This document shows positions 8,492-26,120 of a stretch of 64,000 bases of DNA, one piece after another; the first letter of the stretch is position 1; each line of letters starts with the position of its first letter. Source of the DNA: Anaerolineaceae bacterium oral taxon 439 (GTDB taxonomy: Bacteria; Chloroflexota; Anaerolineae; Anaerolineales; Anaerolineaceae). The notes beneath the pieces are model-generated. The model worked only from the letters and a program-made list of their open reading frames with translations. It made no database searches and had not been told where the DNA came from. The DNA lies in NCBI GenBank assembly GCA_001717545.1, contig CP017039.1:1984001-2048000 (forward strand), written 5' to 3'. Made by a program: the position numbers and the translations under genes.

Positions 8492-8512
8492 GCCGGGCCA
8501 TTAAAAATCCAG

Positions 8513-8903: not shown

Positions 8904-8959
8904 CTTTCAGATATTTTGTCCGCCATATTTCATTACGGAAATTCATATCAGGAGAAATC

Positions 8960-10192: not shown

Positions 10193-10207
10193 TCCGGTTC
10201 ATCAATC

Positions 10208-10249
10208 TGCTCAGGCGTGGCGACGCGGAGGCATGACTGCGCCTGAGCA
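10208..10249 (+). other. Intercistronic stem-loop between binding protein and permease genes
   Basis: TGCTCAGGCG (10208-10217) and CGCCTGAGCA (10240-10249) are perfectly complementary over 10 bp with a 22-nt loop and no T-run. Such a hairpin would stabilise the upstream mRNA and favour high binding-protein levels over permease levels, as seen in maltose-type operons. Confidence 0.6.
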
Positions 10250-10288
10250 ATCCGATTGACCCATCAAAATAGACAGCGGGACAGCATC

Positions 10289-11161
10289 ATGAACACACAG
10301 AAAAAAACAGATTGGGGCGCATACCTTTTCCTGGTTCCGGCCGCTATTATCTACCTGTCCGTCATCGTTTTTCCGATCGGCTATTCCTTTTTTATCAGTC
10401 TGAACAAATGGAACGGAATCGCTGAAATGGAATTCGTCGGCTTAGGAAATTACATATCGCTATTTACGAACGATCCGATTTTCCAGCAGTCGCTTAAAAA
10501 CAACCTGATCTGGATCATCCTGACGATCTGTCTGACGATGCCGGCTGCGTTAGGCTTCGCGCTGATCCTGAACCATAAGTTCAAAGGTCGGACGTTCTTC
10601 CGCGGCCTCTTTTACTTTCCATGCGTCATCGCGCCGATCACCGTCTCGATCATCTGGCGCTGGATTTACGAGCCGAGCGTTGGATTTATTAATCAGCTGG
10701 CCAAATTGATCAACTCGCCATTCCGCCAGAGCTGGCTTTCCAACCCGGATACCAGCCTCTACGCTATCTTTGCCGCCGCGCTTTGGGCCGGAATCGGCGG
10801 TTCGATGATCCTTTTTCTCGCAGGACTCCAATCTGTTCCCACCGAAGTTCTGGAAGCCGCGACGATCGACGGCGCTTCGGGTATCCGGCGTTTCTTCTCG
10901 GTGACGGTCCCGCTGTTACGCGAGACGTTCGTTATCGTTTTAGCGACGTTGATCGTTTCCGCGATGAAAGTTTTCGACGTGGTGCAGGGCCTGACCGGAG
11001 GCGGTCCCAATAACGCCACTCAGATGATGTCGACATATATGTATTCGCAATCATTCCGGTACAACAACGTCGGGATGGGGACCGCGATCTCCTGCATCAT
11101 GGTCATTATGATGCTCGTCGTTATCGTCCCTTACGTCAGCTTCACCGCTAAAGAAGCGTAG
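10289..11161 (+). CDS. Sugar ABC transporter permease, MalF/UgpA type
   Basis: 290 residues from the ATG at 10289; an in-frame TTG at 10256 was rejected because MNTQKKTDWGAYLFLVPA is the usual opening. Six membrane segments are predicted. The cytoplasmic EAA loop (EAATIDGASGIRRFFSVTVPLL, written here only to its key residues E-A-A and G) near residue 200 is the contact site for the ATPase. The family 1 permease PPxW region is replaced by the usual GGPNNAT motif near the C terminus. It forms a heterodimer with the next gene product in the cytoplasmic membrane. Operon position: after the binding protein, 20 bp before the second permease. Confidence 0.88.
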   Translation: MNTQKKTDWGAYLFLVPAAIIYLSVIVFPIGYSFFISLNKWNGIAEMEFVGLGNYISLFTNDPIFQQSLKNNLIWIILTICLTMPAALGFALILNHKFKGRTFFRGLFYFPCVIAPITVSIIWRWIYEPSVGFINQLAKLINSPFRQSWLSNPDTSLYAIFAAALWAGIGGSMILFLAGLQSVPTEVLEAATIDGASGIRRFFSVTVPLLRETFVIVLATLIVSAMKVFDVVQGLTGGGPNNATQMMSTYMYSQSFRYNNVGMGTAISCIMVIMMLVVIVPYVSFTAKEA

Positions 11162-11181
11162 ACGGCCGATCGGAGAGAACC

Positions 11182-12021
11182 ATGACAGCACTAAATAAAA
11201 AAATCACGAAAACGACGCTGTTTTATATCGCGCTGATCCTGATCGCGATTATCTGGATCATTCCAATTTATACGCTCCTCGCGACCGCCGTCAAAAGCAA
11301 ACAGGACTTTTTCAGCGGTCTCGGACTTTTCAGCCTGCCAAAAAAATTTGCCTGGGTCAACTTTGCCAACGCGTTTACAAAAGGGAATTTAGGCAGATAC
11401 ATGGTCAACGGACTGATCATCTGCGTCCTGAAAGTTCCGCTCGGAATCTTCGTCGAAGCGTTAGCCGCTTTCGCGATGACCCGATTAAACGTCAGGCACA
11501 AGACCGCTATATTCGTCTTCTTTCTGGTCGGAATGATGCTCCCGATGCAATCCGCGTTGGTTCCGATTAACGTCGTCTTCAGTAAATTGAAGCTGCTGAA
11601 TACCTATTTCGGTTTATTTTACGTGTACGTTGGATTCGGGATATCCTACGGGATCCTGATCCTGCGCGGATTTTTCCGCGGAATACCGAAAGAGATCGAC
11701 GAAGCCGCGACGCTCGACGGCTGTTCCAAATGGCGGTTGTTATGGCGGATTATCCTGCCGATCGCCAAACCCGCCGTCGCTACCCTCGTCATAACCGATT
11801 TTCTCGCGACCTGGAACGAATACCTTTTAGCGAGCGTTATTATCAACGATAACACTAAGAAAACCGTGCCGGTCGGGCTCATGACCTTCGTCGGCGAACA
11901 TGGAACCGATTACGGGTTCCTCTGCGCCGGGGTTCTGATGTCGGTTGTTCCGGTCCTGACCGTTTACCTGATCTTCCAGCGGAATTTTGTCGAAGGCATG
12001 TCCGGCGCTATCAAGTCATAA
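11182..12021 (+). CDS. Sugar ABC transporter permease, MalG/UgpE type
   Basis: 279 residues with six predicted membrane helices and GGAGAG upstream of the ATG. The EAA-loop motif (EIDEAATLDGCSKW) near residue 175, the TWNEYLLA segment and the C-terminal FVEGMSGAIKS are classic for MalG-type CUT1 permeases. It partners with the preceding permease. Only 12 bp separate it from the downstream glycosidase-like gene, so uptake and intracellular breakdown are co-expressed. Confidence 0.9.
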   Translation: MTALNKKITKTTLFYIALILIAIIWIIPIYTLLATAVKSKQDFFSGLGLFSLPKKFAWVNFANAFTKGNLGRYMVNGLIICVLKVPLGIFVEALAAFAMTRLNVRHKTAIFVFFLVGMMLPMQSALVPINVVFSKLKLLNTYFGLFYVYVGFGISYGILILRGFFRGIPKEIDEAATLDGCSKWRLLWRIILPIAKPAVATLVITDFLATWNEYLLASVIINDNTKKTVPVGLMTFVGEHGTDYGFLCAGVLMSVVPVLTVYLIFQRNFVEGMSGAIKS

Positions 12022-12033
12022 AAGGAACCAGCA

Positions 12034-13572
12034 ATGAGCATTCCACAATATCCAAAAATGGTTGAAAAATGGGGTGTCTTTGAAATAAGCTGCCGCGGGA
12101 AATCGGATAAGAATCCGTTTACGGATTATACGATCCAGGGCGAATTTTCCAGCAAAAACGAAACGAGCACAGTCGACGGATTTTACGACGGCGACGGCGT
12201 CTATAAAGTCCGATTCATGCCGCGGTTCGAGGAAGATCACGTTTTCAGGATCTTCGGGACCTTCTCCGAGGAAACGGTTGGCGGAGCCTTTTCCGTCGCG
12301 CCGCCCGCCGAAAAGAATCACGGGCCGGTCCATGTCGCCAACACGTTTCATTTCGCCTATGAGGACGGGACCCCTTATTACCCGATCGGGACGACCTGCT
12401 ACGTCTGGGAGCTCCAATCGGAAGCGCTTCAAAAACAGACGCTGGAAACATTGAAGAATTCGGCGTTCAATAAAATCCGGTTCTGCATTTTCCCGAAGCA
12501 TTACGATTACAACCTGAACGAACCGTCTTCCTACCCCTATATTGGCAAGCCGATGGACAGCTCGGTCCTGACCAGCGACAATTTCCAGCAATACAACGGC
12601 GCGGCGGATGGGAACGACTGGGATTTCACGCGGTTCAACCCGGCTCATTTCCGTCATATCGAAAAATCGATCGAAGCGCTGCGGGACCTGGAAATCGAAG
12701 CCGACCTGATCGTCATGCATCCCTACGATCGCTGGGGCTTCAGCCTGATGAACCCCGAACAGGACGATCTTTACTGGAAATACGTTATCGCCCGCTTCTC
12801 CGCCTATCGGAACGTCTGGTGGTCGCTGGCGAACGAATATGACCTGATGCCCCAGAAATCGATCGCGGACTGGGAACGCATCGCGAAAATTCTCTGTACT
12901 CATGACCCGTATCAGCACCTGCGTTCGATCCATAACTGTCGTCCGTTCTACGATCATTCGCGCCCGTGGATTACGCACTGCAGTATCCAACGTCAGGACC
13001 TGTATAAATCCGCGGAGCTCGTCGGAGAATGGCGGGAGAAATATCGGAAGCCGATCGTCCTCGACGAAATCGCTTACGAAGGCAATATCCAGCATGGATG
13101 GGGGAATATCTCCGGGAAGGAGCTGGTCCGCCGGTTCTGGGAAGCGGCCTGCCGCGGTGGATACGCCGGGCACGGAGAAACGTTCATGAGCAGTGACAAC
13201 GTTCTCTGGTGGTCGCATGGCGGAACGCTGAAAGGCGAAAGCCCGGAACGGTTCCGCTTCCTTTATCAAATTCTGGCGGACACCCCCGGGCTGGGACTCA
13301 TGCCGATCCAACGCGATTGGGACGCCGCAACCGCGGTCCCGGATACGCTCCAATCGCTCGTTTCGCCGGAATATTACCTGATTTATTACAGCTTCATGCG
13401 CCCGTCGTTCCGGGAATTTTATTTTGACGATTCGAATACGTATGAAGTTGAAGTAATCGGCACATGGGAAATGACGATTCAGAAGGCCGGAAGGTATCAG
13501 GGAAAATTCAAAATCGAGCTGCCGGGGAAAGAATACATGGCCGTTCGGATCCGTAAAGTCTCCGCCGCCTGA
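12034..13572 (+). CDS. Cytoplasmic glycoside hydrolase-like protein (DUF5060/DUF4038 type)
   Basis: 512 residues with no signal peptide. The N-terminal ~90 residues (VEKWGVFEISCRG ... FRIFGTF) form a beta-sandwich of the DUF5060 type. The centre (about 110-420) is a TIM barrel of the DUF4038 apiosidase-like/GH5-like group, with WWSLANEYD supplying a candidate acid/base Glu and KPIVLDEIAYEG the candidate nucleophile Glu. The C-terminal ~80 residues make a small beta domain, as in DUF5605. Because it is encoded directly behind an ABC importer and is cytoplasmic, it probably hydrolyses the imported glycoside. Relatives of the DUF4038 group include apiosidases, so release of a branched or deoxy sugar is possible, but the substrate cannot be read from sequence. 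Confidence 0.75.
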   Translation: MSIPQYPKMVEKWGVFEISCRGKSDKNPFTDYTIQGEFSSKNETSTVDGFYDGDGVYKVRFMPRFEEDHVFRIFGTFSEETVGGAFSVAPPAEKNHGPVHVANTFHFAYEDGTPYYPIGTTCYVWELQSEALQKQTLETLKNSAFNKIRFCIFPKHYDYNLNEPSSYPYIGKPMDSSVLTSDNFQQYNGAADGNDWDFTRFNPAHFRHIEKSIEALRDLEIEADLIVMHPYDRWGFSLMNPEQDDLYWKYVIARFSAYRNVWWSLANEYDLMPQKSIADWERIAKILCTHDPYQHLRSIHNCRPFYDHSRPWITHCSIQRQDLYKSAELVGEWREKYRKPIVLDEIAYEGNIQHGWGNISGKELVRRFWEAACRGGYAGHGETFMSSDNVLWWSHGGTLKGESPERFRFLYQILADTPGLGLMPIQRDWDAATAVPDTLQSLVSPEYYLIYYSFMRPSFREFYFDDSNTYEVEVIGTWEMTIQKAGRYQGKFKIELPGKEYMAVRIRKVSAA

Positions 13573-13600
13573 TCCCTGGACAAGCTGAACTGCAAAGGCA

Positions 13601-13627
13601 AAAGCTCCCGGCTTTGGGAGCTTTTTT
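13601..13627 (+). terminator. Rho-independent terminator of the ABC importer operon
   Basis: AAGCTCCC (13602-13609) pairs with GGGAGCTT (13616-13623), followed by a T-run. It separates this operon from the inositol operon. Confidence 0.85.
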
Positions 13628-13736
13628 CAGACGGCGGCCGCCTCACGCATGGAACGATTTACCCCACCCCTCTCGCAGTGACATTCCGCCGGATAAAAAA
13701 TGACAATCAATTCCGCTCGGAAACGGCGAAAAATGA

Positions 13737-13766
13737 TACAATTGTCCTGCTTGTAAACGTTTACAA
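13737..13766 (+). promoter_or_regulatory. -10 box and LacI-type operator controlling the inositol operon
   Basis: TACAAT (13737-13742) is followed by the perfect 16-bp palindrome TTGTAAACGTTTACAA (13751-13766), which covers the expected transcription start. The TGTAAACGTTTACA core with a central CG is the standard LacI/GalR-family operator form. The LacI-family gene at 22791, at the end of the same cluster, is the natural candidate repressor. No convincing -35 box was found. Confidence 0.65.
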
Positions 13767-13811
13767 AGCCGCTGTTAACGAAATCAGCCAATTAAAGGAG
13801 CTATTTTTCTC

Positions 13812-14825
13812 ATGAAGAAAATCAAGATCGGAATCATCGGCGCGGGACGCATCGGACGCGTCCACGCCAACGCCTTAACCAACAGCATCCCGCAGGCAGA
13901 AGTCGTCGCCATTTCCGATACCTTCGCCGCCGCCGCTGAGAAAGCCGCCGCCGACTTCGGCATCCCGCATTTCTACGCCGACTATCAGGAAATCCTGAAA
14001 AACCCCGAAATCGACGCGGTTCTCGTCTGTTCCCCGACGAATACACATGCTCAAATCACGATCGAAGCCGCCAACGCCGGGAAGCATGTCTTCTGCGAAA
14101 AGCCGGTCGACCTGAAAATCGAACGCATCCTCGAGGCGAAAGCCGCTGCCGAAAAAGCCGGGATCAAGCTCCAGATCGGCTTTAACCGCCGTTTTGATCA
14201 TAACTTCAACCGGATCAGCCAGCTGGCGCGAGCCGGCGCGTTGGGCGAGCTTCAGGTCCTGCGGATTACCTCGCGCGATCCGGAACCGCCGTCCGCCGAG
14301 TACGCGAAAAATTCCGGCGGGATGTTCCTCGATATGACGATTCATGATTTCGACATGGCCTATTTCCTCGCGAATTCAGAAGTCGAGGAGGTTTTCGCCG
14401 CGACCGCCGTCACCGTCGACCCCGCGATCGGCGCCGCCGGCGATATCGACACGGCCGTGATCACGCTCCGCTTCGCCAACGGCGCGATCGGCGTCATCGA
14501 TAACTGCCGCAAGGCAGCGTACGGTTACGACCAGCGCGTCGAATACTTCGGGACGAAAGGCGCCGCCGTCGCTGAAAACGACCGCGAAACGAACGTCAGC
14601 GTCGCCACCGCCGAATCGGTCAGCAGCGATAAACCGCTGTATTTCTTCCTCGAACGATACATGCAGTCGTTCCGGGAAGAGCTCTGCCAGTTTATTGACG
14701 CGATCGAAAACGACAAGCCGGTACCGGTGAATATCGACGACGGACTGCGCCCGATCCGGATCGCGATCGCCGCGAAAAAATCGTCGCTCGAAAACCGTCC
14801 CGTTCGCCTGAGCGAAATCGAATAG
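13812..14825 (+). CDS. iolG: myo-Inositol 2-dehydrogenase (Gfo/Idh/MocA family)
   Basis: 337 residues, AAAGGAG upstream. The N-terminal Rossmann fold has GAGRIG (10-15) for NAD binding; EKP near 97 carries the catalytic-network lysine; GGMFLDMTIHDFD near 175 contains the conserved Asp/His pair of inositol dehydrogenases; and GYDQRVEYFGTKG near 238 is typical of IolG. It oxidises myo-inositol to scyllo-inosose with NAD+, the first step of inositol breakdown. It is the first gene of the operon behind a LacI-type operator and is followed directly by iolB, iolD and iolE. Other Gfo/Idh/MocA sugars are conceivable, but the neighbours make inositol or a stereoisomer the best call. Confidence 0.9.
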   Translation: MKKIKIGIIGAGRIGRVHANALTNSIPQAEVVAISDTFAAAAEKAAADFGIPHFYADYQEILKNPEIDAVLVCSPTNTHAQITIEAANAGKHVFCEKPVDLKIERILEAKAAAEKAGIKLQIGFNRRFDHNFNRISQLARAGALGELQVLRITSRDPEPPSAEYAKNSGGMFLDMTIHDFDMAYFLANSEVEEVFAATAVTVDPAIGAAGDIDTAVITLRFANGAIGVIDNCRKAAYGYDQRVEYFGTKGAAVAENDRETNVSVATAESVSSDKPLYFFLERYMQSFREELCQFIDAIENDKPVPVNIDDGLRPIRIAIAAKKSSLENRPVRLSEIE

Positions 14826-14870
14826 CTCGTTGCTGTAAAAGCGCATGAAGAAAACAACGGAGGAACAAAA

Positions 14871-15674
14871 ATGAATCGCAGCCTTATCCCCGCCCGCCCG
14901 TTTTCGGACGGGTACAACGAAATCGTACGGCGCGGCGGAAGCCCGGACATGCTGATGGATTTCGGAATTATCCGGCTGAAAACCGGACAAGTCTATCAGA
15001 ATAACGAACCGCTCGAGCGCGTCCTCCTCCTGGTCCAGGGGGCGGTTACGCTCGAATTCGCGGGCCAGGAGAAAACGATCGACCGGGCCAACTGCTTTGA
15101 CAGCGCTCCCTGGGTACTGAGCCTTCCCGCCGGCGAACCCGTCAGGATTACCTCGCGCCGCGACGATACCGAACTCACGTACAACGCGACCGAGAACGAA
15201 CGCGCGTTTCCGCCGCGCCTCTACGCGCCGGAAGAAACTCCCGATGAATATCGGGGCGCGGGAACGATGAAAGAAACGTCTACGCGAATCGTTCGCACGA
15301 CGTTCAACTACACGAACGCACCTCATTCCAACTTCGTCATCGGCGAAGTCGTCGGCTTCCCCGGAAAATGGAGCAGCTACCCGCCGCATCATCATCCGCA
15401 GCCGGAAATTTACTACTATAAAACGATGCCCGAGGGCGGGCGCGCGTACGCCGAGCTCGGCGACGACGCCTATAAGCTCCGCGGCGACGATACGCTCCTG
15501 ATTACCGAAGGATTGACCCATTCGCACGTAACCTACCCGGGGTATGCGCTCTGGTACCTCTGGATCATCCGACATCTCGACGGCGCGCCATATATTACCC
15601 CGATCTTCGTACCCGAATTCAAGTGGGTCGAAGCTCCGGACGCGATCATCTGGCCCGATAAAGCGGAGGAATAA
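14871..15674 (+). CDS. iolB: 5-Deoxy-glucuronate isomerase
   Basis: 267 residues, matching the family length. It is a double cupin; the metal-binding cluster PPHHHPQPEIYYY (about 178-190) and the second-half His at GLTHSHVTYPG are the IolB hallmarks. It converts 5-deoxy-D-glucuronate to 2-deoxy-5-keto-D-gluconate (DKG), the fourth step of the iol pathway. GGAGG lies before the start. The stop codon ends 1 bp before the iolD start, so the two are translationally coupled. No iolC kinase follows, which in most iol operons would phosphorylate the product. Confidence 0.93.
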   Translation: MNRSLIPARPFSDGYNEIVRRGGSPDMLMDFGIIRLKTGQVYQNNEPLERVLLLVQGAVTLEFAGQEKTIDRANCFDSAPWVLSLPAGEPVRITSRRDDTELTYNATENERAFPPRLYAPEETPDEYRGAGTMKETSTRIVRTTFNYTNAPHSNFVIGEVVGFPGKWSSYPPHHHPQPEIYYYKTMPEGGRAYAELGDDAYKLRGDDTLLITEGLTHSHVTYPGYALWYLWIIRHLDGAPYITPIFVPEFKWVEAPDAIIWPDKAEE

Positions 15675-15675
15675 A

Positions 15676-17544
15676 ATGACCCAACGAACTCGATTAACCA
15701 TGGCGCAGGCGCTCGTCCGCTTCCTGGACCGCCAGTACATCTCGTTCGACGGGAAAGAGGAAAAATTCGTCGACGCCATGTTCGGGATCTTCGGGCATGG
15801 CTGCGTCGTCGGCGTCGGTCAGGCGCTCGAACAGGGCGGGCACGGGATCCGCTTCCTGCAAGGGCATAACGAACAGGGGATGGCGCACGCTGCGATCGGA
15901 TACGCGAAACAGCTCAACCGCCGGAAAATTATCCCATGCCTGTCGTCGATCGGCCCCGGCGCGATGAACATGGTCACCGCCTGCGGAACCGCGACCGCGA
16001 ATCGGATCCCGCTCCTCGTCCTCCCCGGCGATACCTTCGCGACGCGCCAGCCAGATCCTGTCCTCCAACAGGTTGAACATCCGAATTCGTTCGCGACGAC
16101 GTCGAACGACGCCTTCCGCGCCGTCTGCAAGTACTGGGATCGGGTCGAACGTCCGGAACAGCTCATGACCGCCATGATTAACGCGATGCGCGTGCTGACC
16201 GACCCCGCCGACACCGGCGCTGTCTGCGTTGCGCTTCCGCAGGACGTCGAAGGCGAAGCGTACGACTACCCTGAATACTTCTTTGAAAAGCGCGTCTGGT
16301 ATCTCGACCGGCGGCCGATTTCCGCGGCGCAGCTGGACCGCGCCGTCGCGTTGATTCGATCCGCGAAAAAACCGCTGCTGATCTGTGGCGGCGGGGTCCG
16401 CTACGCTGAAGCCGGCGACGCGTTAATTCGCTTCGCCGAAGCGCTGAACGTTCCGATCGCGGAAACGCAGGCCGGAAAATCCGTCGTACCCTGGGACCAT
16501 CCGCTGAACGTCGGCGGTCTCGGCGTAACCGGCGGGAAAGCCGCGAACGTCCTCGCGAAAGACGCCGACCTGATCCTCGCGGTCGGGACGCGGCTGACCG
16601 ATTTCACGACGGCGTCGAAATCCGCCTTTAAGAACCCTGACGCGCGGCTGCTCTCGATCAACGTCTGCCCGTTTGACGCGTTCAAGATGGACGCGGACGC
16701 GATCATCGCCGACGCGCGCGAAGCTTTAACAGCGCTGACCGCGTCGCTCAGCGCGATTGGGTACCGTTCCGGCTATCAGGGCGAAATCGCGGCGGCGCGG
16801 GACGAATGGAACGCGATCGTCGACGATTTCTATGCGCAGCCGGATACAGCCGCCGGGATGAGCCAGACGCGCGCGTTAGGCCTGATCAATTCACACATGA
16901 AACCCGCCGATATCGCGGTCGGCTCCGCCGGATCGCTCCCCGGCGACATGCAGCGGCTCTTCCGCCCGGGGAACCGTGACACCTACCACATGGAGTACGG
17001 CTATTCCTGCATGGGCTATGAAGTCAACGCCGCCGTCGGGGTCAAAATGGCCCAACCTGAAAGCGAAGTTTACGCGTTTCTCGGAGACGGCTCGTTTATC
17101 ATGTCGCACAGCGAGCTGTATACCGCCGTGCAGGAAGGGTTGAAAGTCAACTTCATGGTCTTCGATAACGCCGGATGGGGCTGTATCGAGAACCTCCAGA
17201 ACAGCCAGGGAACAAAAACCTTCGGGACCGTTTTCAAAGCGCGAAGCGAGACGACCGGCCGCCTCGACGGCGGGCCGCTTCCGATCGATTTCGCCAGGAT
17301 CGCCGAGGGCTACGGACTGAAAGCCTACCGCGCCGCGACGAGCGCGGAGCTCGAAGCCGCGCTGAACGACGCGGAGGCCCAGACCGGCCCCTGCCTCTTC
17401 GATATCAAGGTACGTCCGGGAACGATGACCCCCGGCTTCGAAAGCTGGTGGCGCGTTGGGACGGCGGAGGTTTCGACCGATCCGAACGTTCAATCGGCTT
17501 ATGAAGCCATGCGCAGGAAAATCAAGCTCGCCCGGGATTATTAG
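15676..17544 (+). CDS. iolD: 3D-(3,5/4)-trihydroxycyclohexane-1,2-dione hydrolase
   Basis: 622 residues beginning [18 protein letters not shown], with GGAGGA ending in the iolB stop region. This is a thiamine-diphosphate enzyme of the acetohydroxyacid-synthase superfamily. [17 protein letters not shown] near 60 supplies the catalytic Glu. The C-terminal GDGSF ... DNAGWGC segment near 475-500 is the TPP/Mg2+ motif. VGVGQALEQ and the conserved QVEHPNS region are typical of IolD. It opens the inositol ring to give 5-deoxyglucuronate, the substrate of IolB next door. The gene is full length with no disruption. Confidence 0.93.
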
Positions 17545-17579
17545 AGCCGGGAATGAATAAAAACGCGGAGAAAATTAAA

Positions 17580-18473
17580 ATGTTATCGACTGAAAAAGTT
17601 CGCCTGGGAATCGCCCCTATCGGATGGACGAATGACGACATGCCCGATCTGGGCGCGGAAAACACGTTTGAACAGTGCGTCAGTGAAATGGCGCTCGCCG
17701 GCTTTGAAGGCTGCGAAATCGGGAATAAATACCCGAAAGACTGGGAAACGCTGAAACATAAACTCGACGTCCGCAAGCTGCAAATCTGCAACGCCTGGTT
17801 CTCAACGCTCTTTACCTCCCGCCCTTACGAGGAGACGATCGCGGCGTTCATCGAGCACCGCGACAAACTTCATTATCTCGGCGCGAAAGTCATCGGCATC
17901 TCGGAACAGGGCAACTCGATTCAGGGAAAGCCAGTCCCGATCCTGGAAAATAAACCGGTCTACAGCGCGGAAGAATGGGAAGTCGTCTGCCGCGGGTTCA
18001 ACGAATTAGGAAAGCTGGCGAAGGAAAAAGGCATGTTCCTGACCGTGCATCATCACATGGGGACCGGCGTTCAGACCGCGGAAGAAATCGACTACCTGAT
18101 GGATCATACCGATCCTGAGCTCGTCTACCTGCTTTTCGATTCGGGTCACCTCAGCTTCGCCGGGATCGATCCGCTCCCGATCCTGAAAAAGTATATTCAT
18201 CGCACCAAACATGTCCATCTGAAGGACCTGCGCTCAAAGGTCTGGGAAAACGTCAAGGCTCAGAAGATGAGCTTCCTCGACGCGGTCCGCGCCGGCGTCT
18301 TTACCGTTCCCGGCGACGGCGACGTTAATTTCCTGCCCATCTTCGAGGAACTGGCGAAGGCCGACTATCGCGGCTGGGTCGTCGTCGAAGCGGAACAGGA
18401 TCCCGCCAAAGCCAACCCGTTTGAATACGCGCTGATCGCACGCGAGTATATCCGCAAAACCGCTAAAATATAA
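17580..18473 (+). CDS. iolE: Inosose dehydratase
   Basis: 297 residues from the ATG at 17580. This start was preferred over an in-frame ATG at 17553 because GGAG (17567-17570) is well spaced and the family begins close to [19 protein letters not shown]. It is an AP-endonuclease-2-type TIM barrel with metal ligands in the [12 protein letters not shown] and LLFDSGHL segments and a HVHLKDLR motif. It dehydrates scyllo-inosose to the cyclohexane-dione cleaved by IolD. With iolG, iolD and iolB, this completes conversion of inositol to DKG in one operon. Confidence 0.93.
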
Positions 18474-18509
18474 CTAAGCCTTTACAGAAAGATAAGGAGA
18501 AAATTCATC

Positions 18510-19532
18510 ATGGTAAAAGTTGGTGTAGCCGGGTACGGCGTAATCGGTCAGCGTCTGGCTGACGGCGTCGCGCTCCAGAAAGACATGCAGCTCGTCGGCG
18601 TCGCCGACGTCGCCCCGACCCTCGCGATCCGCGCGCTGAAAGAGAAAGGCATGCCGTACGAGCTGTATCTCGCGGTCTCGGATCATCGCGCCAGGTTCGA
18701 CGAACTCGGGATCCCCGTCAGCGGGACGCTCGAAGACCTGATCCAGAAATGCGATATCATTCTCGACGCGACGAACGCCGGCGTCGGCGCGAAAAATAAG
18801 CAGCTTTACGAGAAATACGGAAAGAAAGCCGTCTTCCAGGGCGGCGAAAAAAACAGTGTCGCCGACGTCTTCTTCCATGGCTACGCTAACTTTGAGAAGG
18901 GTGTCGGGAAGCAGTTCCTGAAATTAACCTCCTGCAACACGACCGGTCTGATCCGCGCCGTGGACGCGCTCGACCGCGATTACGGCGTTGAAAAAGTCGC
19001 AATTACGATTATCCGTCGCGTCGCCGATCCAGGCGATTATCATCGCGGACTGACCAACGCGCTGCAGATCGACAAAGCTCCAAGCCATCAGGCCGTCGAC
19101 CTGATGACGATCATGCCGCACGTCGAAGCGACCGGAATCCTCGTGCATACCCCCGTTACCCATGGACATATCATCACCGTCCTCGCGAAAGGGAAACAGA
19201 AAATAACCCGGGAGATGGCGCTGAAGACGTTCCGGGGCCACGACCGAATCCGTGTCGTCCGGATTGAAGACGGATTCCTCGGGAACGCTTCGTTCTTCCG
19301 CTACGCCCGCGACCTCGGGAACCCGCGCGGCGACATGTACGAAATCGGTTTATGGGAAGATTCGATCGTCGAATCCGGCGACGATATCATGTTCGCGATC
19401 AACATTCCTCAGGAATCGGTCACGATCCCCGAAACGATGGACGCGATTCGCGCCGCCTGCGGGATGCAGCCGGATCGGGCGTCCGGAACGGCAGCGACCA
19501 ACGCCAATTTAGGGTTAGGAAAATGGAAATAA
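18510..19532 (+). CDS. Type II (archaeal-type) glyceraldehyde-3-phosphate dehydrogenase-like protein
   Basis: 340 residues, the length of archaeal GAPDH. The N-terminal Rossmann fold (VGVAGYGVIGQRLADGV) binds NAD(P); C142 in TSCNTTGL is the catalytic cysteine; RR at 169-170 matches the RRAADP phosphate-site motif of archaeal enzymes. The next motif, usually PSHHGPDV, reads PSHQAVDL here, so one His is lost. Family reaction: aldehyde plus phosphate plus NAD(P)+ to acyl phosphate. It overlaps the PGK-like gene by 10 bp, which implies coupled use. In this operon the true substrate may be a different aldehyde, for example malic semialdehyde, but ordinary glycolytic use is not excluded. No second gap gene is visible in the window. 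Confidence 0.85.
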   Translation: MVKVGVAGYGVIGQRLADGVALQKDMQLVGVADVAPTLAIRALKEKGMPYELYLAVSDHRARFDELGIPVSGTLEDLIQKCDIILDATNAGVGAKNKQLYEKYGKKAVFQGGEKNSVADVFFHGYANFEKGVGKQFLKLTSCNTTGLIRAVDALDRDYGVEKVAITIIRRVADPGDYHRGLTNALQIDKAPSHQAVDLMTIMPHVEATGILVHTPVTHGHIITVLAKGKQKITREMALKTFRGHDRIRVVRIEDGFLGNASFFRYARDLGNPRGDMYEIGLWEDSIVESGDDIMFAINIPQESVTIPETMDAIRAACGMQPDRASGTAATNANLGLGKWK

Positions 19533-20773
19533 AAATGCGGTCCCTTGACGGGATCAACCTGAACGGGAAAAAAGTTCTTCTCCGTCCGGATATTAACTCG
19601 CCGATCGATCCCCAAACCGGGGCCATCGTCAGCGACGACCGCATCGTCAAGACGATCCCGGTGATTCGGGAGCTGATCGACGGAGGCGCCGCAGTCGCGA
19701 TCATCGCGCATCAAGGCGACACGCTCGATTATCAGAACCTGACCGATCTCTCGGCGCATGCCGCGCGGATCGAAGCGCTCCTCGGCCGGCCGGTCGAGTA
19801 TCTGGACGACGTTTGCGGCCCGGCCGCGATCGCGCGCGTCAAGGCGCTTCAGCCCAGCGAAATCGTTATTCTGGGGAACCTGCGCTACCTGACCGAGGAA
19901 GTTTCAACGTTCGAGAAAGACGTCAGGCTGACCGCCGGGCAGTATGGAAAGACCCGCCTGGTCCGGCGCCTCGCGCCGCTCTTCGACCTGTACGTGAACG
20001 ACGCCTTCTCCGCGGCGCATCGCAACGCGGCCAGCATGGTCGCGTTTCAGGAGCTGCTTCCGACGGCCGCCGGGCCGCTTCTTTTCCGCGAATACGGCGA
20101 GCTCTTCAACGTTTTGCACAACGCCGTCAAGCCGGTTGTCTTCGTTCTTGGCGGCGCGAAAATTTCCGACGCATTCGGAATGATGAAACCGGTCCTTGAA
20201 AACGGGACAGCCGATACGATCCTGACGACCGGCGTCACCGGAATCGTTTTTCTCGCCGCCGCGGGGATCCCGATCGGAGAAAAAGAAACGAACTTCCTCC
20301 GGGATAAAGATCTCCTCGGCTTTATCGACGAAGCGAAAAACTATCTCCTCGACTACCCGGAAAAATTCGCCCTTCCGCTCGACCTCGCCTTCGAAAAAGA
20401 CGGATTGCGCGCCGAAACCGACGCCGCGGACCTTCCCGGCGACGCGCTCTTCCTCGATATCGGTCCGAAAACCGTCGCTTTCTACGCGAACGTCCTCGCA
20501 GGAGCGAGAACGATTTTCGCGAACGGTCCCGCCGGACTGTACGAGGACGAGCGATTCGCCGCCGGGACCCGGGGAATCTGGGAAGCGATCGCCGCTTCCG
20601 AAGGTCATTCGGTTATCGGCGGCGGCGACACCGTCAGCTCCGCCTCGAAATTCATCGACCTCAGCAGGATCACCTACGTTTCGACCGCCGGCGGCGCGAT
20701 GGTACGCTTTATGTCAGGAAAAAAGCTGCCGCTGATCATGGCGATGGAGAAGGCGTTTGCGGCGGGGAAATAA
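19523..20773 (+). CDS. Archaeal-type phosphoglycerate kinase-like protein
   Basis: 416 residues. The PGK signature is present as LLRPDINSP (19-27), with R40 (SDDRI), R121 (GNLRY) and R167 (AAHRN) keeping basic-patch arginines, and GGAKISDAFG for the nucleotide half. The HQGRP motif of the family reads HQGDT (63-67), so the arginine that contacts the substrate phosphate is aspartate 66; the usual ENxRF glutamate is also glycine (G118). The C-terminal GGGDTVSSASKF matches archaeal PGKs. It would transfer phosphate from an acyl phosphate to ADP, making ATP. Its coupling to the GAPDH-like gene shows they act in sequence. The altered patch suggests a non-standard substrate; this is inferred from remembered family motifs. 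Confidence 0.83.
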   Translation: MEIKMRSLDGINLNGKKVLLRPDINSPIDPQTGAIVSDDRIVKTIPVIRELIDGGAAVAIIAHQGDTLDYQNLTDLSAHAARIEALLGRPVEYLDDVCGPAAIARVKALQPSEIVILGNLRYLTEEVSTFEKDVRLTAGQYGKTRLVRRLAPLFDLYVNDAFSAAHRNAASMVAFQELLPTAAGPLLFREYGELFNVLHNAVKPVVFVLGGAKISDAFGMMKPVLENGTADTILTTGVTGIVFLAAAGIPIGEKETNFLRDKDLLGFIDEAKNYLLDYPEKFALPLDLAFEKDGLRAETDAADLPGDALFLDIGPKTVAFYANVLAGARTIFANGPAGLYEDERFAAGTRGIWEAIAASEGHSVIGGGDTVSSASKFIDLSRITYVSTAGGAMVRFMSGKKLPLIMAMEKAFAAGK

Positions 20774-20857
20774 AAGACAGATTATACTTATAGCCGCGTC
20801 CGGTACGTACAATCGATAGCGGGCGGATTCGATAAAAAGAGAAAGGATCAACGCATT

Positions 20858-21679
20858 ATGACGAAATTACAAGCATTTGCAAGGGATATCCGCATCCAGC
20901 AGATGATCGAGTTCAAGACCCGCGGCTTCGGGCATCTGGGCGGGTCGCTGTCGATAACCGACTGCCTCGCCGCGCTCTACGGCGAAATCATGAACATCGA
21001 TCCCGGGAATCCGAGCTGGGAGGACCGCGATCGGCTGGTCATGTCGAAAGGACACGCCGGTCCGGCGCTCTACGCGACCCTCGCTCTCAAAGGATACTTT
21101 CCGCTCGACGTCCTGCTGACGCTGAATCAGAACGGAACGAAGCTCCCGAGCCATTGCGATAAAAATCTGACGCCCGGAATCGACATGACGACCGGTTCGC
21201 TCGGGCAGGGCGCGTCGACCGCCGCCGGAATGGCGCTCGGATTGAAACATTCCGGTAAAAAAGCGCGCGTCTATCTCATTATCGGCGACGGCGAAGCGCA
21301 GGAAGGCCAGGTCTGGGAGATGGCGCTTTTCGCGGCGCAGAAGAAGCTCAGCAACCTCATTCTCTTCCTCGACTTCAACAAGCGCCAGCTCGACGGGCGG
21401 ACCGAAACCATTGCTGACCTCGAAGACCCGACCGAAAAATTCAAGTCGTTCGGCTGGCACGCCGTTCGCATCCCCGGGAACGATCCCGACCGGATCGCCC
21501 GGACGGTCCGCGAGGTTCAGGCAGCGCAGGGCGAAAAGCCGGGCGCGATTATCCTGGATACCGAAAAAGGCGCAGGCGTTCAAAAGATCATTGATATCGA
21601 ATTGAATCATCATATCACCTGTTCCCCGGAACTTGCCGACGCGGTCATCTCCGAACTCGAAGCTCAGAAGAAAGGATAA
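20858..21679 (+). CDS. Transketolase, N-terminal (TPP-binding) subunit
   Basis: 273 residues, about the N-terminal two-fifths of a normal transketolase. It contains HLGGSLSITDCLAALYG near the start, SKGHAGPALYA near 65, GSLGQGASTAAGMALG near 110 and the TPP/metal motif GDGEAQEGQVWE (about 143-154) ending in NKRQLDG. It carries AAAGGA upstream and sits 6 bp before the C-terminal subunit gene; together they form a split transketolase. Split enzymes occur in many anaerobes, and also as dedicated pathway enzymes (for example for apulose phosphate or sulfo-sugars). Membership of an inositol operon suggests a dedicated role in transferring a two-carbon unit from the ketose acid DKG. The 84-bp gap in front has a TTATACT-like box but no clear promoter. 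Confidence 0.9.
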   Translation: MTKLQAFARDIRIQQMIEFKTRGFGHLGGSLSITDCLAALYGEIMNIDPGNPSWEDRDRLVMSKGHAGPALYATLALKGYFPLDVLLTLNQNGTKLPSHCDKNLTPGIDMTTGSLGQGASTAAGMALGLKHSGKKARVYLIIGDGEAQEGQVWEMALFAAQKKLSNLILFLDFNKRQLDGRTETIADLEDPTEKFKSFGWHAVRIPGNDPDRIARTVREVQAAQGEKPGAIILDTEKGAGVQKIIDIELNHHITCSPELADAVISELEAQKKG

Positions 21680-21685
21680 TCCACA

Positions 21686-22651
21686 ATGTATAAAATAATC
21701 TATACGGGCGAATTAGAAAAAGTCGCTGGAAAAGCCGTCTTCGGGGCGACGATGAAAGCGCTCCTCGCCGAGGATAAGGACGTCGTCTATCTCGACGCCG
21801 ACCTGATGAACTCTGTTGGGACCGGCGGCCTCGAAAACCAGTTCCCGGATCAGGCGTTCGACGTCGGGATCCAGGAAGCCAACATGGCGGGGCTCGCCGG
21901 CGGTCTCGCCGCGGTCGGGAAGAAACCGTATATTCATACGTTCGGCTGCTTCGCCTCCCGACGCATGTTCGATCAGGTCTTCATCTCAATCGCCTATGCG
22001 CAGCTGAACGCGCGGGTCATCGGCTCCGATCCGGGCGTGACCGCCGCTTATAACGGCGGAACGCACATGCCGTTCGAAGATATCTGCCTGTACCGTGCGA
22101 TCCCGAACGCGACCGTGATCGAAACGACCGACGCCGCGATGGCGGGCGCGATCCTGCGCCAGACGAAAGACCGGCCGGGCGTTACCTATATCCGTCTTTC
22201 GCGGAAGAATCTTCCCGCTATTTACGAACCGGGTTCAACGTTCGAGATCGGGAAAGGGAACGTCCTCCGAGACGGAAAAGACGTCGCATTTATCGTCGCC
22301 GGCCTGCTCGTCGCCGAAGCGCTGAAAGCCGCGGAGGAGCTCGAAAAAGAGGGGATCTCCGCCGCCGTCATCGACATGTTCACGATCAAGCCGCTCGACG
22401 AAGCGCTGACGCTCGAATATGCGAAGAAGACCGGCGCGATCGTGACCGGAGAAAACGGAAATATCGTCGGCGGATTAGGCGCGGCGGTCGCCGGGTTCCT
22501 GAGCGAGAACCGTCCGACCCCGGTCGTCCGAACCGGCGTTCAGGACCGCTTCGGACAGGTCGGCGCACAGAATTTCCTTCAGGAGGAATACGGCCTGACT
22601 GCGAAAGTCCTGATCGAAAACGCGAAAAAAGCGATCGCGCTGAAAGGGTAA
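21686..22651 (+). CDS. Transketolase, C-terminal (pyrimidine-binding) subunit
   Basis: 321 residues. E64 in DVGIQEANMAGLAGG is the conserved Glu that activates TPP in the partner's site. The HTFGCFASRRMFDQV and GSDPGVTAAYNGGTHMPFED segments, and TYIRLSRKN near 170, correspond to the substrate-phosphate region of transketolases. The last ~120 residues form the usual C-terminal Rossmann-like domain (TGENGNIVGGLGAAV). It forms an active heterotetramer with the preceding subunit. It is the final gene of the inositol operon, which ends 24 bp later at a terminator. Related DXP-synthase or dehydrogenase E1 functions are less likely because of the donor-side motifs. Confidence 0.9.
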   Translation: MYKIIYTGELEKVAGKAVFGATMKALLAEDKDVVYLDADLMNSVGTGGLENQFPDQAFDVGIQEANMAGLAGGLAAVGKKPYIHTFGCFASRRMFDQVFISIAYAQLNARVIGSDPGVTAAYNGGTHMPFEDICLYRAIPNATVIETTDAAMAGAILRQTKDRPGVTYIRLSRKNLPAIYEPGSTFEIGKGNVLRDGKDVAFIVAGLLVAEALKAAEELEKEGISAAVIDMFTIKPLDEALTLEYAKKTGAIVTGENGNIVGGLGAAVAGFLSENRPTPVVRTGVQDRFGQVGAQNFLQEEYGLTAKVLIENAKKAIALKG

Positions 22652-22674
22652 GCGGCCTTTCCGTCAAATCGACA

Positions 22675-22736
22675 ACGGGCGCATCGTGCAGCGATCGCGA
22701 AACCGATCGTAAAGCAATTCCGTTGCGCCCGTTTTT
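22675..22736 (+). terminator. Terminator of the inositol operon
   Basis: ACGGGCGCA (22675-22683) pairs perfectly with TGCGCCCGT (22724-22732) and is followed by TTTT. The ~40-nt loop contains a further small hairpin around CGATCGCGAAACCGATCG. Confidence 0.7.
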
Positions 22737-22790
22737 GATTCATTCTCGAAGCCGGATATGGGAGAAAGCCAGAAGGACAGGCGGCTATCG

Positions 22791-23789
22791 ATGGAAAACG
22801 TAACGATTAAGGATATCGCCGGCGCATGCGGCGTTTCATACGCGACCGTCTCGCGGACGCTGAACCGGCGCAGCGGCGTGCATCCGGCAACGCGCGAGAA
22901 GATCCTGCGCGTTGCTGACCTCCTTGGCTATTCCCCGAATCTCCACGCGCGCAGCCTGAAAACGCAGAAAACCCGGATTATCGGGCTGATTCTGCCCGAT
23001 ATCTCGAACCCGTTTTTCGCCGATATCGCCTCGTCTGTCAATGAAATCGTTTATGGACAGGGGTATAACTCGATCCTTTGCAGCACGGACTGGAACGCGT
23101 CTATCGAAGAAAAGCAGCTTTCGCTCCTGATCGATCAGCGGGTCGACGGGCTGATCTTCAAGCCATCGCCCGACCTGACCGACCGTTACGCCGAACTCCC
23201 GCTTCCGAAGGTCATGATTTCCAATTCGCAGGACCCCCGGTTCAGCTGGGTTGAAATCGACAACGTCGAAGGCGGACGGATCGCCGCGGATCACCTGATA
23301 ACCGGCTGCGGCTATCGGTATCCAGCGTTTATCAGCGGCGCCCGCGCGTCCCGCTCCAATCAGGATCGCCTTCAGGGCTTCCGCCAACGCTTAGCCGAAC
23401 TCGACGTCCCGCTTCCCGACGAACGGATTTCTTTCGGGGCGTATTCGATCGAAAGCGGGTACCGGTCCGTCGAAAAGCTCGATCGAGGCGGCTCCGAAGC
23501 GGATTGTTTCTTCTGCGGAAACGACCTGATCGCGCTGGGCGCGCTCCAATATCTCTCCGAAAAGGATCGCCCGGTTCCGGACCGCTTCGGCGTCGTCGGA
23601 TTTGACGACGTTTATTTCGCATCTCTTCCGCAGATCCAGCTGACAACCGTTCGACAGCCGCGCCGCAGGATCGGCGCGCTCGCCGCTGAAACGCTGAGCC
23701 GCATGATAGAATCCGAAGAACGGCCGGGAGAAACGCAGATCATGCTTCGGCCTGAGCTCGTCGCCCGCCACACGACAAGCGAGCATTAG
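22791..23789 (+). CDS. LacI-family transcriptional regulator, probable repressor of the inositol operon
   Basis: 332 residues from the ATG at 22791; an ATG 33 bp upstream was rejected because MENVTIKDIAGACGVSYATV is the standard LacI start. The helix-turn-helix lies at about 5-25, followed by the hinge helix (YSPNLHARSLKTQKTRIIGLI). The rest is a periplasmic-binding-protein-like sensor domain with conserved GFDDVYFA and TTVRQPRR motifs. It lies directly behind the inositol operon, and the perfect LacI-type palindrome at 13751 sits on that operon's start point. The simplest model is repression relieved by inositol or an early catabolite. It may also control larA downstream. Confidence 0.88.
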   Translation: MENVTIKDIAGACGVSYATVSRTLNRRSGVHPATREKILRVADLLGYSPNLHARSLKTQKTRIIGLILPDISNPFFADIASSVNEIVYGQGYNSILCSTDWNASIEEKQLSLLIDQRVDGLIFKPSPDLTDRYAELPLPKVMISNSQDPRFSWVEIDNVEGGRIAADHLITGCGYRYPAFISGARASRSNQDRLQGFRQRLAELDVPLPDERISFGAYSIESGYRSVEKLDRGGSEADCFFCGNDLIALGALQYLSEKDRPVPDRFGVVGFDDVYFASLPQIQLTTVRQPRRRIGALAAETLSRMIESEERPGETQIMLRPELVARHTTSEH

Positions 23790-23893
23790 AACCGTCGTTT
23801 CCGTATCCGATATCAAACGCCGCAAGACATTTCACCATGACGGAAGGAAAGTAAAACCAAGCTGATGAGGAACCGCCAAACCAGGGAAGCCAT

Positions 23894-25156
23894 ATGAACC
23901 AGATTTTTAATTTCGCAAAATCAACCGTTTCACTTTCAATCCCGGATCGCAGCCTGCGAAAAGTATTGACCGCCAAAGCGGTCGAGGTCCCCCCGGATCA
24001 GGAGGAAACCGTCCGCCGGGCGATCGCCGCGCCAATTGGAACGCCTCGGCTATCCGAAATTGTCCGTCCCGGCGAAAAAATCGCGATTATTACCAGCGAT
24101 ATCACACGTCCGATGCCGTCGAGAATCGTCCTCCCGCCCGTCCTCGCCGAACTCGAAAAAGCCGGAATCGCGCCGGGCGACGTCACGATCGTTTTCGCGT
24201 TGGGGATTCACCGTACGCATACCGAAGCCGAAAAAGAAGCGCTCGTCGGATCCGACGTCTACCGGAAATACCGTTGTATCGATTCGTCGGGCGAATTCGT
24301 TAAGCTCGGAACAGGCAAACACGGGACGCCGTTCGAAGTTTTCAAACCGGTTGTCGACGCTGACCGCCGAATCTGCCTTGGGAATATCGAGTTCCATTAT
24401 TTCGCCGGATTCAGCGGCGGCATGAAAGCGATCATGCCGGGAGTTTCGACAAAAGCCGCGATTCAGGCGAACCACAGCCACATGGTCCATCCGGACGCCG
24501 CCGCCGGAAAAATCGACGGCAATCCGGTCCGCGGCGATATCGACGAAGTCCTCGACTTTATCAACGTCGACTTCATCGTCAACGTCGTCCTCGACGAAAA
24601 GAAACGCATCGTCCACGCCGTCGCGGGTCATCCGATCGCGGCGCACCGGGCCGGATGCCGTCTGCTGGAAGACATGTACCGGATCGAAATCCCCGACCGC
24701 GCCGAAATCGTCGTCGTTTCGCCCGGCGGCTACCCCAAAGATATCAACCTCTATCAGGCGCAAAAAGCGCTCGATAACGCCAAACACGCCGTCAGGAAAG
24801 GCGGCTCGATCCTCTGGATCGCCTCCGCCGCCGAAGGCCTGGGCGAAGACTCGTTTGAGGAATGGATGCTGGGGCATGAAAAATTATCCGACATGATCCC
24901 GCATATCCGCGAACATTTTGTCCTCGGCGGGCATAAAGCCGCCGCGATCGCGCTCGTCGCCGAAATCGCCGATATTTATCTGTATTCCGACCTCCCCGAA
25001 GACTTCGTCCGCAGGCTGCATTTCCAGCCCGTTTCAGACCTCCAGGGGACCTTCGACGCGCTGCTCCGGAAATATGGGGAAAACGCCGGGGTGATTGCAA
25101 TGCCGTTCGGCGGCGCGACGCTCCCCTTTTTAGCCGGACACCCGGACGCCGCCTGA
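23894..25156 (+). CDS. larA: LarA-family nickel-pincer racemase
   Basis: 420 residues, the family length. Conserved landmarks: the DITRPMP phosphate-like loop near 75, GIHRTHT near 104 (active-site His), EFHYFAGFSGGMKAIMPG near 165-182 (second His, and the Lys that carries the nickel-pincer cofactor) and NHSHMVHP near 200. LarA proteins interconvert 2-hydroxyacid stereoisomers; known members act on lactate, malate and other hydroxyacids, so lactate is only the default name. The cofactor genes larB, larC and larE are not in the window. Its position next to the inositol operon and its LacI gene suggests a substrate made there; D-malate is one possibility. It is full length, in a gap with no clear own promoter. 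Confidence 0.85.
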   Translation: MNQIFNFAKSTVSLSIPDRSLRKVLTAKAVEVPPDQEETVRRAIAAPIGTPRLSEIVRPGEKIAIITSDITRPMPSRIVLPPVLAELEKAGIAPGDVTIVFALGIHRTHTEAEKEALVGSDVYRKYRCIDSSGEFVKLGTGKHGTPFEVFKPVVDADRRICLGNIEFHYFAGFSGGMKAIMPGVSTKAAIQANHSHMVHPDAAAGKIDGNPVRGDIDEVLDFINVDFIVNVVLDEKKRIVHAVAGHPIAAHRAGCRLLEDMYRIEIPDRAEIVVVSPGGYPKDINLYQAQKALDNAKHAVRKGGSILWIASAAEGLGEDSFEEWMLGHEKLSDMIPHIREHFVLGGHKAAAIALVAEIADIYLYSDLPEDFVRRLHFQPVSDLQGTFDALLRKYGENAGVIAMPFGGATLPFLAGHPDAA

Positions 25157-25226: not shown

Positions 25227-26120
25227 ATGAAATACTACGGCGCAATCGAGGCTGGCGGGACTAAATTTGTCTGTTCCGTAATCGCCGATCCGGATAATTA
25301 TTTCGAAGAAGAACGGTTCCCGACGACAATGCCTCAGGAAACGATCGCACGGACGATCGAATTCTTCAAGGAAAAGCAGAAAAAATATCCGTTAGCGGCG
25401 CTGGGGATCAGCTGTTTCGGGCCAATCGACCTGAACGAAGCTTCTCCGACCTACGGCTATATCACGAGCACCCCGAAGCCGGGCTGGAAAAATACGAATA
25501 TCGTCGGCGCCCTTGAGGATGCGTTCGGCCTGAAAATCGGCTTTGATACCGATGTCAACGGCGCGGCGCTCGCCGAATATATCTGGGGGAATCCGTACGG
25601 CGTCCGCTCGCTCGTTTATTACACGATCGGGACCGGCGTCGGCGCTGGCGTCGTTATCAACGGCGCCCCCGTTCACGGGCTGGTTCATCCCGAAGGCGGT
25701 CATATCCTGATCCGTCAGGATTACGAATCGGATCCATACGCCGGTCATTGTCCTTTTCATCAGAATTGTCTGGAAGGCTTATGCTGCGGCCCGTCGGTTC
25801 AGGATCGATTCGGGAAACCCGGATATGAACTCGGCGATGATCATCCGTTTTGGAATACGTTCTCGAATTACGTTGCCCAGGCCTGCGTCAGTCAGATTCT
25901 TCAGATCTCGCCCGAGAAAATCGTCCTCGGCGGCGGCGTCATGGAGCAGGAGCATCTCTTCCCGAAGATCCATGCCGAAGTCTTGCGCCTGCTGAACGGT
26001 TACGTAATTCATCCGGCGATCCTCGAAAAAATTGACGAATACATCACCCCTCCAGTACTCGGGAACCGCGCCGGAGCCTGCGGCGCGATGGCGCTTGCGC
26101 GCCGCGCACTCGAAGGTTAA
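25227..26120 (+). CDS. ROK-family sugar kinase, fructokinase-like
   Basis: 297 residues. ATP-binding signature GAIEAGGTKFVCSV at the N terminus; DTDVNGAALAE near 107-117 holds the catalytic Asp; the ROK zinc site is HCPFHQNCLEG (about 173-183) with the upstream His in HPEGGHI; GGGVMEQEHLFP is the second ATP motif. This pattern, including CLEG followed by CCGPS, matches bacterial ROK fructokinases better than glucokinases. It phosphorylates a hexose in the cytoplasm. It is probably monocistronic, with its own TATAAT and a terminator. It is not a substitute for IolC, which belongs to the PfkB family. Confidence 0.85.
   Translation: MKYYGAIEAGGTKFVCSVIADPDNYFEEERFPTTMPQETIARTIEFFKEKQKKYPLAALGISCFGPIDLNEASPTYGYITSTPKPGWKNTNIVGALEDAFGLKIGFDTDVNGAALAEYIWGNPYGVRSLVYYTIGTGVGAGVVINGAPVHGLVHPEGGHILIRQDYESDPYAGHCPFHQNCLEGLCCGPSVQDRFGKPGYELGDDHPFWNTFSNYVAQACVSQILQISPEKIVLGGGVMEQEHLFPKIHAEVLRLLNGYVIHPAILEKIDEYITPPVLGNRAGACGAMALARRALEG

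Follow-up and report, generated by a model that had tools for sequence, protein, structure and literature searches.

Gene Content of the Locus

The window, the whole 64,000-nucleotide stretch analyzed here, spans positions 1,984,001 to 2,048,000 of contig CP017039.1 of Anaerolineaceae bacterium oral taxon 439, whose genome is a single contig of 2.945 Mb (99.89% complete). It carries an operon in which iolG, iolD, iolE and an iolB-like gene are joined to homologues of glyceraldehyde-3-phosphate dehydrogenase (GAPDH) and phosphoglycerate kinase (PGK) and to the two genes of a split transketolase (tkN and tkC). We consider it probable that this cluster constitutes, in the window, a transketolase branch of myo-inositol catabolism, in which 2-deoxy-5-keto-D-gluconate (DKG) would serve as the transketolase donor.

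Open reading frames and family scans place all named genes head to tail on the + strand (Table 1). The initial annotation had described one operon joining iolG, iolB, iolD and iolE to the split transketolase, GAPDH and PGK. That gene content stands, with IolB identified at the family level only. Its extent was narrowed: judged by intergenic spacing, the operon proper runs from iolG to tkC (13812–22651), and lacI, larA and a ROK-family kinase gene lie downstream in the same orientation, set off by gaps of ∼70–106 bases.

Table 1. Coordinates of the features in the window (position 1 is its first base; scores are those of the family models, with the cut-off where available)
Feature	Position	Strand	Basis or remark
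Perfect 16-base palindrome TTGTAAACGTTTACAA	13751..13766		Candidate LacI-type operator immediately before iolG
iolG, inositol 2-dehydrogenase	13812..14825	+	TIGR04380, 469 bits (cut-off 355)
iolB-like, 5-deoxy-glucuronate isomerase candidate (DKG-forming)	14871..15674	+	KduI/IolB PF04962, 159 bits
iolD, trihydroxycyclohexanedione hydrolase	15676..17544	+	TIGR04377, 916 bits (cut-off 715); start set at the beginning of the family match
iolE, myo-inosose-2 dehydratase	17553..18473	+	TIGR04379, 405 bits (cut-off 290)
Type II (archaeal-type) GAPDH homologue, proposed phosphorylating D-malic semialdehyde dehydrogenase	18510..19532	+	NF003251, 405 bits (cut-off 185)
PGK homologue, proposed D-malyl phosphate:ADP phosphotransferase	19535..20773	+	PF00162, 344 bits (cut-off 27)
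tkN, split transketolase N-terminal (thiamine diphosphate) subunit	20858..21679	+	Transketolase_N PF00456, 149 bits
tkC, split transketolase C-terminal subunit	21686..22651	+	Transket_pyr PF02779 and Transketolase_C PF02780
LacI-family regulator	22758..23789	+	PF00356 and PF13377
larA, nickel-pincer malate racemase of the LarAH6 type, proposed to convert D- to L-malate	23894..25156	+	NF052593, 542 bits (cut-off 500)
ROK-family sugar kinase, pathway link unproven	25227..26120	+	PF00480, 207 bits

The closest Protein Data Bank (PDB) chain to the GAPDH homologue is 2czc (253 bits); an AlphaFold model of the protein has a pLDDT of 87.7. The Pfam Gp_dh_N match in the window belongs to iolG and was set aside, that model missing the GAPDH homologue. 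The tkN and tkC products are closest to chains 6yak, the split transketolase of Carboxydothermus, and 6yaj, respectively. The neighboring LarA had been proposed to be a malate racemase, an assignment strengthened here: the protein passes the LarAH6 cut-off, and its top PDB match is the malate racemase Mar2 (6d6z, 374 bits).

Canonical GAPDH and PGK genes lie together ∼80 kb from the operon, as revealed by a genome search that the initial annotation had recommended. The absence of iolC and iolA, first noticed at the locus, now extends to the whole genome: no match to IolC exceeds the cut-off (15 iolC-model matches, the best at 115 vs. 300 bits), and IolA/MMSDH has no match at E≤0.001. IolJ was not among the operon genes in the family scans, and no genome search aimed at it was made. 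The genome has just two Transketolase_N genes, the operon copy and a split one at 1356985–1357704, which stands beside a sugar-kinase-like gene and whose active-site stretch is not canonical. LarC is a nickel-pincer cofactor gene, and LarC (PF01969) is found over its cut-off in two separate places, 1840571–1841479 and 1055330–1055734 (− strand), covering model positions 1–237 and 241–374.

Recurrence of the Gene Set Across Phyla

A survey of one genome per species (84,980 species) yielded 231 pattern matches and 185 GAPDH relatives. The best 80 of the 185 were kept, and all are 74–83% identical to the window GAPDH. By record title these 80 belong to Bacillota (44), Spirochaetota (29), Planctomycetota (2), Chloroflexota (2), Myxococcota (1) and Synergistota (1), with one unassigned. 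The nearest named relative is that of Flexilinea flocculi (Anaerolineaceae, Chloroflexota). Among 400 genomes sampled from the own phylum, 14 others gave GAPDH matches that were only 34–39% identical or shorter, and matches in plasmid records did not exceed 38% identity. A quick maximum-likelihood tree set 81 close GAPDHs apart from 11 ordinary ones on long branches, with 100% SH-aLRT support.

Neighboring genes were counted within 10 kb on each side of the GAPDH gene or to the contig end. A pgk-like gene was present at 75 of the 80 loci, a larA-family gene at 35, iolE at 35, iolD at 29, a malic enzyme at 28, tkN at 28, tkC at 27, iolB at 22 and iolG at 21. At least one marker among iolD/iolE, transketolase, larA and malic enzyme accompanied the GAPDH gene at 58 of the 80 loci. 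The co-occurrence that the initial annotation had proposed to survey is thus found, and because the gene set recurs across phyla, chance clustering is excluded. Pfam Malic_M recognizes the malic enzyme of two loci, L047 and L074, and NCBIfam malic-enzyme models match L034 and L047 below their cut-offs. Malic enzymes beside the set provide evidence for malate that the initial annotation lacked.

The surroundings of the pair vary. At L104, a locus without larA, the gene directly after GAPDH-PGK encodes a member of TIGR02089 (504 bits, cut-off 470), the tartrate/D-malate dehydrogenase family, and this protein would consume D-malate directly. PdxA-like and SDR genes precede GAPDH-PGK at the same locus, and a gene for an Asp/Glu-racemase-family protein adjoins the GAPDH gene in L104 (7430–13470), L068, L079 and L086. 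In the Acetobacterium-type loci L095–L097 (∼5260–14771), GAPDH-PGK-malic enzyme-LarA lies directly behind a pyruvate/acetoin-dehydrogenase-like E1-E2-E3 operon; L073 (2–6604) has a similar arrangement, its available part showing just E1 beta and E2. The genomes of these loci have no IolD over its cut-off. In these four loci the thiamine/lipoyl complex may act in the transketolase's place on another ketol. A group of Clostridia (L035, L037, L040, L044, L046, L057, L058 and L077) carries GAPDH-PGK alone, flanked by ABC exporter, FAD oxidase and ECF-type genes, with iolD elsewhere in the genome. A phosphoketolase-like protein of 700–900 amino acids was not recognized beside the set in relatives, where start sequences were inspected by eye only.

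Conserved Changes in the Predicted Substrate Sites

Because the aligned rows were selected for their similarity to the window enzymes, what they have in common reflects conservation across phyla and not independent origins. The catalytic-Cys motif SCNTTGL of GAPDH is kept in 80 of 80 relatives. Elsewhere in the pocket, RRVADPGDYHRGLTNAL occurs in 77 of the 80 and SHQA(V/L/I)DL in 76, at positions where all 11 ordinary type II GAPDHs used for comparison have RRx(T/A)DPWES and SHQGPDA.

In the PGK-like proteins the arginine of HLGR, presumably one of the residues holding the 3-phosphate, is replaced in all 73 aligned rows, by Asp in 37 and by Ser in 36; the window homologue has HQGD. The other nine of ten checked substrate- and nucleotide-site positions are unchanged in 73 of 73. 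Two sequence types are thereby seen at one phosphate-end position, HQGD-TLD (37 of 73), which goes with the window type, and HQGS (36 of 73).

Transketolase positions were read against the split enzyme of Carboxydothermus. In tkC the phosphate-site His is replaced by Asp in the window and in 27 of 27 relatives, and the acceptor-site Asp by Asn in 27 of 27; in tkN, GHPD has become SHCD (27 of 27). All 27 retain the second phosphate-site Arg. The same His-to-Asp exchange is described for 6-deoxy-6-sulfofructose transketolase (PMC11659671). These pocket changes, as read from the alignments, fit a carboxylate replacing the phosphate of the substrate, and the earlier suggestion that the GAPDH/PGK pair acts on a carboxylate analogue gains support from the uniform change in the PGK-like proteins and from the recurrence of the pair with iol genes, transketolase, racemase and malic enzyme.

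Genome-Wide Distribution of IolD, IolC and Canonical GAPDH

Fifty relative genomes were searched, 44 without iolD/iolE beside the GAPDH gene and 6 with them. IolD exceeded its cut-off in 33 of the 50, comprising 27 of the former group and all 6 of the latter. Taking these genomes together with the 30 unsearched loci (29 of which have iolD or iolE), iolD or iolE is found at the locus or in the genome for 62 of the 80. Canonical GAPDH was over its cut-off in 44 of the 50 genomes. IolC was over its cut-off in 2 of the 50, one of them IolD-positive.

Of the 400 genomes sampled from the own phylum, 98 had IolD over its cut-off, 41 had IolC and 39 had both. Among iolD-positive genomes, IolC was therefore present in 1 of 33 with the GAPDH clade vs. 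39 of 97 without a close copy (Fisher p = 1.8e-5, a value that carries no correction for kinship and compares two groups from different phyla that are not independent).

Proposed Pathway

IolG, IolE, IolD and IolB would form DKG as in the classical route, and the dedicated split transketolase would then stand in for IolC, IolJ and IolA. Read from C6, DKG is HOCH2-CO-CHOH-CHOH-CH2-COOH and should present the D-threo arrangement of transketolase donors. On redrawing the molecule end for end, the earlier stereochemical argument holds: its C4 and C3 appear arranged as in xylulose, and the four-carbon fragment would have the D configuration. The probable acceptor of DKG C5-C6 is glyceraldehyde 3-phosphate, which would become xylulose 5-phosphate, and the remaining four carbons would leave as (R)-3-hydroxy-4-oxobutanoate (D-malic semialdehyde). 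This aldehyde would have CH2-COOH where glyceraldehyde 3-phosphate has CH2-OPO3. With NAD(P)+ and phosphate, the GAPDH homologue would oxidize D-malic semialdehyde to D-malyl phosphate, from which the PGK homologue would transfer the phosphoryl group to ADP, yielding D-malate and ATP. The putative LarAH6 racemase would turn D-malate into L-malate, and in relatives the malic enzyme beside the set would release pyruvate and CO2 from it.

The predicted route from DKG through D-malic semialdehyde and D-malyl phosphate to D-malate and ATP is well supported by the comparisons above; every catalytic step after DKG, together with the acceptor and the cofactor, is what we infer from homology and chemistry. 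We lean toward a broader reading as well, in which this would be a widespread and previously undescribed inositol route, found mostly in lineages of the anaerobic type and spanning at least six phyla. It would use DKG as a transketolase donor, an archaeal-type GAPDH/PGK pair making ATP via a new metabolite, D-malyl phosphate, and a nickel-pincer racemase recovering D-malate, with the module also connected, in Acetobacterium and others, to sources of malic semialdehyde that do not depend on iol. That the pair is a general malic-semialdehyde module is less certain.

All comparative tests that were run and were able to fail support the transketolase-route proposal, the following exceptions aside, all of which weigh against it. 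In the window, the iolB-like gene scores below the IolB equivalog cut-off (84 vs. 205 bits), and no malic enzyme was recognized in the scanned stretch. Neither Transketolase_N gene of the genome has the canonical motif, so the operon transketolase might have a second role in the pentose phosphate pathway. Among relatives, 22 of the 80 loci have no marker adjacent (15 of these 22 have iolD elsewhere in the genome), the LarA relatives of L074 and L082 fall under the LarAH6 cut-off, and the transketolase beside the set in L087 is full-length and canonical. IolD was not over its cut-off in 17 of the 50 searched genomes; two (G410 and G419) have strong fragments, and 15, the three Acetobacterium-type genomes among them, have neither. 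In these 15 the pair needs another source of substrate, or else the drafts are incomplete. Because the pair is present without iolD in some genomes, it may serve more than one precursor. Canonical GAPDH was below its cut-off in 6 of the 50. Finally, 58 of the 97 iolD-positive genomes of the own phylum without a close GAPDH copy also lack IolC over its cut-off, so a missing iolC alone is no mark of the route.

Alternative Explanations

The GAPDH, PGK and transketolase genes might instead be a spare lower-glycolysis and pentose-phosphate set that has ordinary sugar phosphates as substrates and is carried along in an iol operon, with inositol degraded through an unseen kinase and aldolase. This explanation leaves the malate racemase and malic enzyme neighbors unaccounted for, and it has to accommodate pocket changes conserved in 73 of 73 PGK-like proteins and 27 of 27 tkC products. 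It can point to the family models, which name a type II GAPDH and a PGK, to PfkB-type kinases in the genome (the weak iolC-model matches), to the presence of just two transketolase genes, and to the 6 of 50 relatives in which canonical GAPDH is not over its cut-off. Against these stand the canonical GAPDH and PGK of the own genome, the canonical GAPDH of the other 44 relatives and the lack of an iolA match in the own genome, and we find the explanation unlikely. The initial annotation had singled out, as a danger to its proposal, the case in which iolC and iolJ lie elsewhere in the genome and this is the organism's only glycolytic and pentose-phosphate set. For GAPDH/PGK an only set is ruled out by the canonical pair; for transketolase it is half open, the other copy being split and non-canonical. 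Where the pocket-changed GAPDH stands alone in relatives, its role as the ordinary glycolytic enzyme was likewise rejected, given the canonical GAPDH in 44 of 50 genomes.

The module could also make malate from a four-carbon aldehyde whose main precursor is not DKG, with iol as one of several feeders and iolD-free genomes relying on another ketol cleavage, e.g., by a pyruvate/acetoin-dehydrogenase-like complex in Acetobacterium. The 15 relative genomes with neither IolD over cut-off nor a strong fragment agree with it, as do the E1-E2-E3 genes directly before GAPDH-PGK-malic enzyme-LarA in L095–L097, the partial operon in L073 and the PdxA-like and SDR genes ahead of the pair in L104. Yet iolD or iolE occurs in 62 of the 80 loci or their genomes, and the iol genes of the window share the operon; we judge this account improbable, and for the window it is compatible with the transketolase branch proposed here. 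Far-fetched, in our view, is a third account, in which the transketolase cleaves another substrate, such as a branched sugar or a sulfosugar, and only common regulation places it in one operon with the inositol genes. The His-to-Asp exchange common to sulfofructose transketolase speaks for it, but sulfoquinovose genes were not recognized in the scanned stretch, DKG has the transketolase head group, and the operon has no other DKG-consuming enzyme.

Relation to Known Systems

As in the classical Iol pathway of the Bacillus subtilis type, IolG, IolE, IolD and the IolB-like protein of the window are predicted to lead to DKG. The window genome differs in having no IolC over its cut-off and no IolA, and where the classical kinase and aldolase cut to C3 + C3, the proposed transketolase would cut to C2 + C4. 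Apulose-4-phosphate transketolase (AptAB) is likewise split and recruited to a sugar catabolic operon; unlike the window enzyme, it acts on a phosphorylated branched sugar and has no GAPDH/PGK pair. With archaeal-type GAPDH and PGK the window proteins share the fold family, the catalytic-Cys motif and the logic of a phosphorylating dehydrogenase followed by an acyl-phosphate kinase. In contrast to ordinary type II GAPDHs, to which it is ∼36–39% identical, the window clade is separate and has changed pocket motifs, and in contrast to PGK, the full substrate basic patch is broken in the window clade by loss of the HLGR Arg.

In the sulfo-TK pathway (SqwGH), a split transketolase moves C2 from a C6 ketose ending in a non-phosphate acid to glyceraldehyde 3-phosphate (PMC11659671). 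The window resembles this system in the split transketolase, the proposed C6 ketose with a non-phosphate acid end and the His-to-Asp exchange. It differs in having a carboxylate here rather than a sulfonate, and in that the C4 aldehyde there is isomerized and recut, whereas here it would be taken by GAPDH/PGK to malate and ATP. Sulfosugar isomerase and sulfoacetaldehyde genes were not among the 19 proteins scanned (2311–27894); the rest of the genome was not searched for them.

An inositol cluster survey counts iolC as core, its main text, in the part available, being silent on transketolase, and its reasons for a missing core gene include incomplete genomes and frameshifts (PMC9430895). The Mar2/LarAH6 papers leave the cellular role of the racemase open and, in the main-text parts available, do not bring in inositol (PMC7583248, PMC11770544); here the likeness to Mar2/LarAH6 is that of the cut-off and PDB match given above, and the difference lies in the role, as the racemase would recover D-malate made from inositol. 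In open-licence PubMed Central full text, a body of literature that leaves subscription papers outside, we found no description linking the degradation of inositol to D-malate or to the cleavage of DKG by a transketolase.

Regulatory Features and Flanking Genes

The palindrome TTGTAAACGTTTACAA has no second match in the window at up to three mismatches. Flexilinea flocculi has the identical 16 bases upstream of its iolG (L030, 4984–4999) and a LacI-family gene, 56% identical, in the equivalent place. A scan for promoters and terminators found sites no more numerous than in shuffled sequence. A gene 72% identical to the ROK kinase gene follows larA in L030 and L032.

ABC sugar transporter genes and an apiosidase-like/DUF5060/DUF5605 glycosidase gene lie directly upstream of the iol operon (8669–13572) and possibly serve to release and take up an inositol glycoside. 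Further upstream, at 2311–5358, is a gene for a YgfK-type putative selenate reductase subunit (TIGR03315, 1334 bits).

Implications

Plants contain inositol and its phosphate, phytate, in abundance. If the proposal is true, bacteria have a second inositol route, in which the kinase step is saved and ATP is gained at the malyl-phosphate step. The products predicted for anaerobes would then be malate, pyruvate or succinate plus pentose phosphate, and not malonate semialdehyde plus triose. Such genomes are overlooked, or scored as incomplete, by surveys in which iolC is a requirement. The route would also assign a function in the cell to a malate racemase for which this had been left open, and it would mean that a GAPDH/PGK pair has shifted to a carboxylate substrate, so that the glycolytic annotations of these proteins would have to be corrected.

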